From Neolentinus lepideus HHB14362 ss-1 (lineage: Eukaryota; Basidiomycota; Agaricomycetes; Gloeophyllales; Gloeophyllaceae), in contig KV425621.1 of the NCBI GenBank assembly GCA_001632425.1, positions 94,019-158,018 on the forward strand: a DNA stretch of 64,000 bases. The letters run 5' to 3'. How positions within the stretch are numbered: position 1 is the first letter of the stretch; each line of letters begins with the position of its first letter. A model generated the notes under the pieces. That model was not told the DNA's origin and did not search any database. It saw only the letters and a list, made by a program, of their open reading frames with translations. The position numbers and the translations under genes were made by a program. This document shows, piece by piece, positions 12,789-15,975 of this stretch.

Positions 12789-15700
12789 TCACATCTCGAC
12801 TTTAATGCGGTGGAACAACTCGGATTGCTTCCTGAGCTCCTCCACACTTGTAGGGGGGGCCGGTTTGCCATCCATAGTGAACGCAGACAGCCCACTGTAC
12901 TCGAAATCTGGGACACCTTCTGGGACACAGTTAGCGGGTTTGACACCATAATCGTCGAAAGTGAATGGATCGCCGGTCTTCTCCGGGGCCGTCAGTACGA
13001 TAGCATTGATGGACTCCAGAGAAACGTCAGTATCGAAGTAATTCAATGGAGTGAGGAAGAAGCTAAGGAGAAAGGCTGAGGTTCCGATGTACGCCCATAG
13101 GCAAACACCACGTACCTCGACGCAGCGAGATTGGTGCGGGTGTTGGGGATGTCTTCAGCTTGAGGCTGTTAAGAGTCGTCAATACAAAGGACTAGCGATG
13201 TACGGATAGCGGACTCACCAGGTGATGCATCCCAACATTAACCCAAGCGACTAAGTCCTCTTGCGTGATATTCTCGCCGTCGAAAAACTTGTGGAAGTCA
13301 ACCATAGGGGCTCCAGGTAGATGCTGATTCCACATGCTGCTAGACGTCGGCTCGTTATCCTTGCGACGCGATACAGCCAAGTTGTAGCGAGCCCAGTTGG
13401 CGTTGTTGAGCAGGCGCTTTGAACCCACAACAGTCTTCATTTCATGTAGATTAGTAGCTGTCGGTAATGTGGTAACTGCGAGCGTACGTTGTAGATAGGA
13501 GAGTAGCCGGGATGGATAGCATATCCTCGTGGGCTACCCCATGCATTGGTCTCTCCCTTGTTGACAATAGCGTAGGAACCTTGGAAGTTGTTGGGGTATT
13601 TGAGAAGCGCATCATCTTCGTTCTCGATATAAGAACGAGAAATCTTCTGCTGAATGACGGTGGTGCCCCAGTCTTCCTCTATCCATGGGTGCTCCACTTC
13701 CTCCTGAGCGGTCGTAGTACGCAAGAGGGAATTCTTTAAGCCGACGAGGTCAAGATCGACCTGTATTGACGGAAAGACTAAGCAACGAGGAAGCATCAGG
13801 TCACAGGGGCAATGTGCATACCTTGTAATTGATGACATGGTCGTGCAGACTCCCCACTGCGTTGTAATGAACTTCGTTCAGTCAAAACAACGAGTATAGT
13901 CTGAAATACTTACTGGACGTGTCACGGATCTGGGCACCGTAACCTTCTTGCTTGGGCTCCCAGTAACCACCCTGTAGGTAGCCTGATGCCGAGAGTCGAA
14001 TCTCAATTGTCCCATCGACATGGAACATGTAGTCAAACTAAATGACGTATCCTCAGTCAGAAAGTACTCAATAGGCTGGCGCCTTGCTTACCACTATCGT
14101 GGGATGAAGCAATAGAACAAACCAGAATCAGTGTCCGCTTTGCGGGTCGAAGAACGAATGCATACAGTAATCGTAGCTGGCGCAAGAGCTGAGTGCAACA
14201 ACAGAAATAAAGGTGTTGCAATAGGCTTACTTTCCAACAGTGCTGATGGACCTGATGGTCAAAACATAGCCCTTGACAGCTCCAAATTCATCCTTCATAT
14301 AGCCGGTATGTCTCGTGATGGGCCGACCGGAGTCTTGTTCGAAAATACAAATAGCGCGCTCCCGCTTAATAATTCCCGTGCCCGAGTGCGTAATAGCGGG
14401 GAGGTACACGGCCTCATGAGGACAGTCATAACCTGGGAGCATGTCGCGGACTGAGGCGCCCATGCCAAAGAAACGATCGAGCCAGGCGGTCGTGGCTTGC
14501 ATGGGATCATTCCCAGCTGATGAAACAACAGTGAGACAAAAAAAAAGCTGCTGTAGCCGGATGCTTACCATACTGTGCTATAGCCTCTTGGGGAGCAAGC
14601 TGGATGCAACCATCAGAGACGTGATGAGTTGGGAAACAAGCCGTTGCATACCTCGTAGATCAAGCGCTCGTCTCTAAACCGGATATCCCATAGGCTCAGT
14701 CCCATATCCCGGTTGAAGCCAAGGTATAGACCCCAGCCCAACCAACTGACATACTGAAGCTCCTTATCAACTCTAAACCTCAGTCCTGCAAAGGAGACTG
14801 AACGAGGTCCAGGAAGGTGGTCGAGGTCGCGACGATATTCAGGGTTAGGACGTTTCCTTGTGCTCCAGGACGGATCCTTCCTTTGATCAGGCCTTTCAGG
14901 GAGCCTCTGCAGAGTTCCGTTGTGGAAGGCGTCAAGAAACGAATCGATACTGTCGAAGACTTGATGGTTGTACACGATCTATGCGATATTAGCAAGCTAT
15001 TCGAACATCAATTGAATCATTCTTACCTTGATTAGTTTCCATTGCGCTGGGTCGGTGCCACTCATATCAACGTACTGGAAGAAGTTGAGCGGATGCAACC
15101 AAGGACCGGCAACGTTGCGACGCCAGGACACCCATGCCCGACGGAAGGTCCCGTCGAAACTCCACGGAGCAGAGACTCCAGCAAGCATAGTATCGTTAAC
15201 CAAGCCCAAGGCGGATGTGCCAAACAATTCCTGACCGCTCGATTAATACTGGAAAACGCGGGGATATGTGAAGACATACCTCAGTCGCCTCGGCGAGGGG
15301 TGCCATGATTTTTAGCACCAAAGGCGCCAGTTCATTGGCAACAAGGACGCCACGAGCATGATACGGGATCTCATCGCGGTGATAGACGTCTTTGAGTTCA
15401 GTCATTTCAGACTTGTCGCTGATGGGCAATGGGCCGATCAAGTAGTCTTTGATCACGGGTACTGTGCCGTGGTGAATAGTGACTCTGGCGTACTTGGCCG
15501 GGCGAAGTGCGGACAACGGGTTCTCGACATAGGCGAGAGCATCAGCTTTACGTGGCTGATACGCATCAATTAGAAATATATGATTGTCCGCAAGACCAGC
15601 TTTATCGGATTTGGTGAGATTGAGACCTCTTGCGGGCTCATCGAGCCACTTCTGAATCGACACAATCTCCTCAACGGTCAGAGGTGCCCACACGTTATTT

Positions 15701-15975
15701 GGGGCCGGGGGCTGGGCGGGAGGAGGGAGGCTCGATGCGCACTGTTCAAGGGGTTTTCCACTAAGCAGTCCAGGAATCGATACCCCTGACTGTATGGCAG
15801 CCTTGTCGGCGTGCGAAGGAGAGACATAGAAGACAGAGAGCGCAATTGTCCCTAGAACTGCGAGCAATGCAAAACCTGCGGTGCGCGATACACGTCGCTT
15901 CGGTTGAGGGACAGATCGGACATCATCGTACGAGTCTGTCTGCTTCAGCGGTTCGTACGCCCTGAGATTAGACAT
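12789..15975 (-). CDS. copper amine oxidase with N-terminal membrane anchor
   Basis: Multi-exon gene for a TPQ-containing primary-amine oxidase (R-CH2-NH2 to aldehyde, NH3 and H2O2). The start chosen is ATG at 15975 (MSNLRAYEPLKQ). A cytosolic tail of about 45 residues, one hydrophobic segment (AGFALLAVLGTIALSVFYV) and a Pro-rich linker precede the catalytic core, suggesting a type II membrane or secreted enzyme. The cofactor site TVG-NYDY-LFDYMFHVDG is split over several tiny exons near 14030-14240. The copper His-x-His is in SLHDHVINYK, and the third-His region is VNVGMHHL. The protein ends at 12789 after NYFDTDVSLES. Clear family features also include GGYWEPKQEGYGAQIRDTS and QGSYAIVNKGETNAWGSPRG. 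The in vivo amine substrate is unknown. Confidence 0.88.

Follow-up and report, generated by a model that had tools for sequence, protein, structure and literature searches.

The copper amine oxidase gene of Neolentinus lepideus (Gloeophyllales, Agaricomycetes) very probably contains a real, and probably constitutive, coding exon of only 2 nt, whose flanking introns would be excised one after the other. The gene lies on the minus strand (12789..15975) of the window, the 64,000-nt stretch that we analysed from this 33.8-Mb genome, and is modelled with 13 coding exons encoding 842 aa. The argument for the 2-nt exon draws on the sequence itself, on the reading frame, on the uniqueness of the GT-AG splice path and on the need of the enzyme family for the encoded residue.

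A predicted 2-nt exon beside the topaquinone motif

A first-pass annotation had proposed this exon, and all its coordinates and letters were borne out on recheck of the sequence. On the minus strand, exon 5 (14231..14516) ends with ...TVG-AA in phase 2 (GGA-AA/GTAAGC, the slash marking the boundary) and is followed by intron 5 (14177..14230; 54 nt, GTAAGC...CGCCAG). Exon 6 (14166..14176) consists of the 11 nt CTACGATTACT, which encode the end of Asn515, then Tyr516, Asp517, Tyr518 and the first base of Leu519 (C-TAC-GAT-TAC-T). Intron 6 (14094..14165; 72 nt, GTATGC...CGATAG) separates it from exon 7 (14092..14093), the dinucleotide TG, which completes the TTG codon of Leu519. Intron 7 (14038..14091; 54 nt, GTAAGC...CTGAC...ATTTAG) then leads to exon 8 (13914..14037), which starts with TTTGACTACATG at 14037 and encodes FDYMFHVDG. 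The model mRNA across exons 5–8 thus reads ...GGAAACTACGATTACTTGTTTGACTAC; in the gene, the intron 6 acceptor faces the intron 7 donor across 2 nt. Flanked by canonical splice sites and required by the reading frame, exon 7 would belong to the class of ultra-small (1–3 nt) microexons.

The ten remaining introns of the gene are 48–61 nt long, and its introns sum to 658 nt. Intron 5 holds a second AG 12 nt upstream (ACTCAG, compared with CGCCAG), giving an acceptor that ends at 14189; its use would shorten the intron to 42 nt and place SCAS within NYDY. ACTCAG could itself contain the branch point (CTCAG), which is a guess. The acceptor of intron 10 (13435–13440) reads ATGAAG, that is AAG rather than YAG, the sole such case among the 12 introns of the gene.

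Elsewhere the gene is read without interruption, and the spliced 13-exon model contains no stop. When aligned with a deposited protein of N. lepideus HHB14362 ss-1 (P0001), 824 of 825 aligned residues are identical and two gaps appear, at residues 63–72 and 513–519 (VGNYDYL); judged by this identity, the window gene is the gene behind P0001, or one very near it. As deposited, P0001 is without the NY[DE]Y motif, which the model has at residues 515–518, supplied via the 11-nt and 2-nt exons. The first gap in P0001, SGVSIPGLLS, falls within exon 1 (window 15761–15790, minus strand) and resembles the removal of a 30-nt GT...AG piece as an intron; since the introns of the gene otherwise all measure at least 48 nt, this is probably another annotation error.

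The enzyme identity is supported at several levels. Exon matches to PF01179 lie above the cut-off at the window locus and P0001 scores 370 bits against this family. The top solved-structure match of the corrected model is 3pgb (E 5.2e-140), in which gNYDY aligns with the NYDY of the model. The motifs HDH (residue 565), GMHH (731) and LDRFFG (432) are all present and also align with 3pgb, where LDRFFG corresponds to ldsyyg. From family knowledge, we take Tyr516 of NYDY to be the tyrosine that gives rise to the topaquinone (TPQ) cofactor, HDH and GMHH to be the copper-ligand histidine motifs, and LDRFFG to be the region of the catalytic Asp.

A second copper amine oxidase gene of the genome (C2:609249-610678) is divergent, of the NYEYVWNY type, with an intron placed differently; read by eye, the gene appears to be interrupted within its own cofactor motif, one base into the Glu codon of NYE. 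Being divergent and with its intron elsewhere, the paralogue was no help as a guide to splicing. A search of the genome for further copies of the region, as introner-like spread would leave, returned only its own locus at E 0.001.

A single all-GT-AG path keeps the motif in frame

We enumerated the in-frame GT/GC-AG chains with up to three introns of at least 40 nt each across this site. NYDY survives in 12 of the 86 chains obtained, and of these a single one, that with the 2-nt exon, uses GT donors throughout. Single- and two-intron models (21 in frame) were discarded, as none keeps NYDY. The first-pass annotation was thus right that the 2-nt exon is needed for an in-frame NYDYxFD, this being the sole all-GT-AG path found that keeps the family motif, and right that a single intron leads at once to a stop: removal of 14165–14038 as one piece gives NYDYF-stop. 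Skipping of the 11-nt exon gives TVGNV-stop, while skipping both tiny exons shifts the frame.

We considered that the two bases might belong not to an exon but to a stwintron (nested twin intron) or to a zero-length recursive site. Two adjacent introns spliced consecutively would look like a stwintron, and stwintrons are known in fungi. However, when nesting was allowed and up to three GT-AG excisions of at least 40 nt were made in any order, TVGNY[DE]YxFDYMF was reached through exactly one final mRNA, from the chain that has TG as an exon, and nested or twin-intron models gave no product with the family motif. By inspection, neither intron splits the donor or acceptor of the other; no donor, branch or acceptor was found interrupted such that nested excision would yield the right product; and with a T immediately preceding the first donor, the [D1,2] arrangement does not form. 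We regard this explanation as extremely improbable.

The remaining 11 NYDY-keeping chains rely on non-canonical GC donors and would produce, for instance, another 2-nt exon (GC, encoding Cys) or a few extra residues behind NYDY; excision of 14165–14083 and 14080–14038, for example, gives NYDYC, and the deposited model of Heliocybe has C at that residue. Such chains require GCCAGC or similar donors, though, and among the matches listed (see below) Cys occupies the position in 1 of 90 contiguous models, that of Heliocybe, and in none of nine entries from short contigs, making splicing from a GC donor highly unlikely here.

Splice-site strength and the level expected by chance

Splice sites were scored against a reference of 41 introns with ORF support, taken from 264 kb of N. 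lepideus sequence that includes the window. These reference introns had been selected to be no longer than 79 nt and to carry GTRNG donors, YAG acceptors and CTRAY motifs, a selection owing to which they cannot alone show that an intron of 128 nt would be too long or a GTTGGA donor impossible. The donor and acceptor of intron 6 fall at the 10th and 7th percentiles of the reference, respectively, and its length at the 95th percentile of a set limited to 79 nt; its sole branch-like motif, CTGAT, lies 34 nt from the acceptor end, similar to the 35 nt of intron 9. For intron 7, the donor is at the 68th and the acceptor at the 7th percentile, with a branch-like CTGAC 19 nt from the end. Low acceptor scores are typical of this gene, most lying at the 0 to 37th percentile. 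No RNA structure pairing branch with acceptor was more stable than in shuffled sequences (z of 0.43 and -0.64 for introns 6 and 7).

The chance of such an arrangement was estimated from random 128-nt genomic intervals (sampled from a pool that includes the window) given the same ends. A strict rescue, defined as an in-frame 2-nt exon with a donor at least as strong as that observed, YAG acceptors and branch-like motifs, occurred in 1 of 20,000 intervals, and in 0 of 20,000 in a separate set when the residue was also required to be L, I, M or V. Relaxed 2-nt rescue was seen in 0.2% of random intervals; when rescuing exons of every length from 2 to 20 nt were counted, the rates were 0.015% (strict) and 1.0% (relaxed). 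The in-frame 2-nt rescue is more than chance. By simple arithmetic, 2 of the 16 possible dinucleotides after T encode Leu.

These figures also bear on an assembly or sequencing error, in which the true genome would have two more exon bases and one intron of about 128–130 nt. An error of 2 nt would likewise break the frame, and a single assembly was seen. Against this, a lone 128-nt intron would exceed twice the length of each of the ten others in the gene, and the error would leave unexplained why a strong donor, together with an acceptor and two branch-like motifs, stands in exactly the arrangement needed for rescue. Nor would an error in this genome make the gene models of relatives break at the same place. 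We hold such an error to be highly improbable.

Gene predictions fail at the cofactor site

To place the site in its family we used 176 distinct proteins among the matches listed (120 each of 361, 232 and 305). Nine entries from short contigs (1,856–4,580 bases; sources lgn or jgi) were taken as transcript-like; four of these contigs could not accommodate both the coding sequence and 658 nt of introns, and the other five are transcript-like by assumption. The other 167 basidiomycete homologues were treated as genome predictions. Among the matches listed, NYDYxF[DE]Y is found in 9 of 9 short-contig entries (x being Leu in eight and Ile in one), while it is intact and contiguous in 90 of the 167 predicted models; NY[DE][YF] is absent from 52 of 167 predictions versus 0 of 9 short-contig entries. 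Leu, the residue that TG completes in N. lepideus, is the commonest after NYDY (63 of the 90 contiguous models and 8 of the 9 short-contig entries listed). Since the motif is in all short-contig entries and absent from many predictions, the residue is needed: among the sequences examined it is kept in the family, and automatic models often fail there.

The failure is localized. Among the matches listed, indels occur at the cofactor site in 73 of 167 predicted models; at eight other junctions the corresponding counts are 2, 7, 6, 4, 5, 8, 8 and 7. Indels at junction 1, seen in 37 of 167, look like true length variation because short-contig entries (4 of 7) show them there too. This comparison covers conserved junctions only; poorly conserved stretches exceed the cofactor site, with indels reaching 90% around residue 336 among the same matches. 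By this alignment evidence, the cofactor site is a hot spot of annotation failure among conserved junctions. As to other motifs, HxH is missing from 6 and G-x-HH from 3 of the 167 predictions listed. Two further control motifs, the catalytic-Asp region and YAGNDP, proved too narrow and were set aside, as they were missing from 77 and 64 of the 167 predictions and also from 2 of 9 and 1 of 9 short-contig entries among the matches listed.

The deposited N. lepideus protein shows one form that the failure takes. Taken by itself, P0001 implies a 201-nt 'intron' (14038..14238, minus strand; donor GTTGGA) that deletes VGNYDYL. Its donor score, -2.8, is below all 41 reference donors, which is partly built in by the GTRNG selection. 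Apparently, P0001 is without its cofactor site because the gene prediction missed the 11-nt and 2-nt exons. Conversely, the gene might be a pseudogene or encode a TPQ-less protein as deposited (IST-FDY), spliced via this 201-nt intron. The deposited form itself speaks for this, as does the exact seven-residue skip shared by 16 of the 167 predictions among the matches listed, P0001 counted. Yet, beside the poor donor, all nine short-contig entries listed have the motif and nearly all 167 listed predictions retain the copper-ligand motifs, whereas the recurrent skip could arise if gene predictors are drawn, in many species, to a GT that lies in frame within the Val codon. A pseudogene or a TPQ-less protein is, in our judgement, very unlikely.

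Relatives may share the tiny exons

The 2-nt exon could be old, with many Agaricomycetes carrying 11-nt and 2-nt exons across the topaquinone motif and many public models of the clade being wrong for that reason. We propose this tentatively, as a possibility with the balance somewhat against it; the failure of models in relatives could also stem from a lone tiny exon of 11 to 13 nt, with no 2-nt exon beside it. The hints come from peptides retained in faulty models, and the hypotheses were framed after the peptides had been inspected. Among the matches listed, 18 models have at least two residues between NY[DE][YF] and F[DE]Y, one of which (P0175) was rejected as a spurious match, an artefact of the regular expression. 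In seven of the 18 peptides the first residues match those of a phase-1 GTRNG donor (against a null of 8%; binomial tail 3e-4 under a post hoc criterion), and two (Fibroporia and Leucogyrophana) go on with L-V-S, the residues expected from a donor placed directly behind the Leu codon. At the other end, five of 18 finish in Val before FDY, as AG/TN/TTT would, a sign that does not separate an absent intron 7 from a spliced one, and six of 18, P0175 included, finish in Q, K or E, as NAG/TTT would. P0175 aside, neither donor hypothesis fits eight of the 18 peptides.

Athelia P0112 conflicts with a shared 2-nt exon: its peptide reads as a donor-like start and an acceptor-like end 74 nt apart, with no possible AG-N2-GT, and Grifola P0094 shows a similar conflict. 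The peptides suggest that both intron positions occur among relatives, not necessarily in one gene. The nearest relative among the matches listed, Heliocybe (P0002), has NYDYC in its deposited model, not NYDYL. A pattern search for orthologous DNA in viral and prokaryote contigs gave 27 and 45 matches, with no relative among them.

A model of sequential, intron-defined splicing

We infer for N. lepideus that the cell splices the transcript as modelled, that the two introns leave in sequence and that the exon is used constitutively. Introns 6 and 7 are both short, and each would be recognised by intron definition. With facing sites only 2 nt apart, simultaneous occupation of both would be excluded; whichever intron went first, the remaining one would retain a full donor, a full acceptor and its own branch region. 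Because each intron is complete after removal of the other, either order would give the right product. Joining of the 11-nt exon, TG and exon 8 would restore NYDYLFDY and so make maturation of Tyr516 to topaquinone possible, whereas skipping of the 2-nt exon would give NYDYF*, presumably a substrate for decay.

On this analysis we see no need for special splicing machinery. The first-pass statement that the exon forces recursive or coupled recognition of its introns was too strong, ordinary intron definition with introns of 48–72 nt being sufficient. Its placing of the exon close to the lower limit of splicing was right, yet 1-nt exons have been published, one of them fungal (PMC12940212).

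Relation to known ultra-small exons

The closest parallel is the 1-nt exon of Fusarium CYP621A P450 genes, reported in 2026 as the first for a fungal gene (PMC12940212). As in N. lepideus, an ultra-small exon lies in a fungal enzyme gene within a conserved motif, was found since the exon phases could not otherwise be joined, had been missed by annotation, and resolves an over-long apparent intron (139 nt in CYP621A) into two. Unlike ours, the CYP621A exon is 1 nt long, comes from Ascomycota and falls in the PKG motif of a P450 rather than at a cofactor residue; it is supported by comparison of 20 orthologues and by SRA reads in two species.

In plants, 1-nt exons are described for APC11 and VPS55 (PMC4674806, PMC8831610). 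They share with the N. lepideus exon a size too small for exon definition and absence from reference annotations, but they are in plant genes, the apparent intron of APC11 is 422 nt long, and they rest on RNA data, with reporter assays in addition for APC11. For Arabidopsis APC11 the authors propose sequential, intron-defined splicing, and note that around the 9-nt exon of potato invertase the second intron goes first (PMC4674806). Micro-exons of 2–5 bp are on record from Arabidopsis, Drosophila and human (PMC12940212, citing Volfovsky 2003), a size class that includes 2 bp as here, although none of those organisms is a fungus. Closer in phylogeny, the P450 genes of the Agaricomycete Phanerochaete chrysosporium have many tiny exons (microexons of 2–10 aa) and introns of 45–55 bp, their shortest exon being 6 bp, unlike the 2 nt considered here (PMC1184071). 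Full-text searches, a scope outside which most subscription papers lie, returned no joint mention of copper amine oxidase and microexon or micro-exon, and for wordings of a 2-nt exon gave a single paper, on primate HLA-F.

Implications

If the model is true, few coding exons proposed in fungi are as small as exon 7, whose two nucleotides complete the residue directly after a self-processing cofactor motif. Its distinction lies in this position beside the cofactor residue and in the scale of the misannotation that it might explain. The site would offer a compact test of how the spliceosome deals with facing splice sites two bases apart, where skipping means an immediate stop. Should the 2-nt exon be shared, the catalytic tyrosine of a whole clade would hang on sequential splicing at such sites. 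Tiny exons here may explain the apparent loss of the tyrosine in 52 of the 167 predicted proteins among the matches listed; inferences of enzyme loss drawn from copper amine oxidase annotations could therefore mislead, and the annotations should be checked first.
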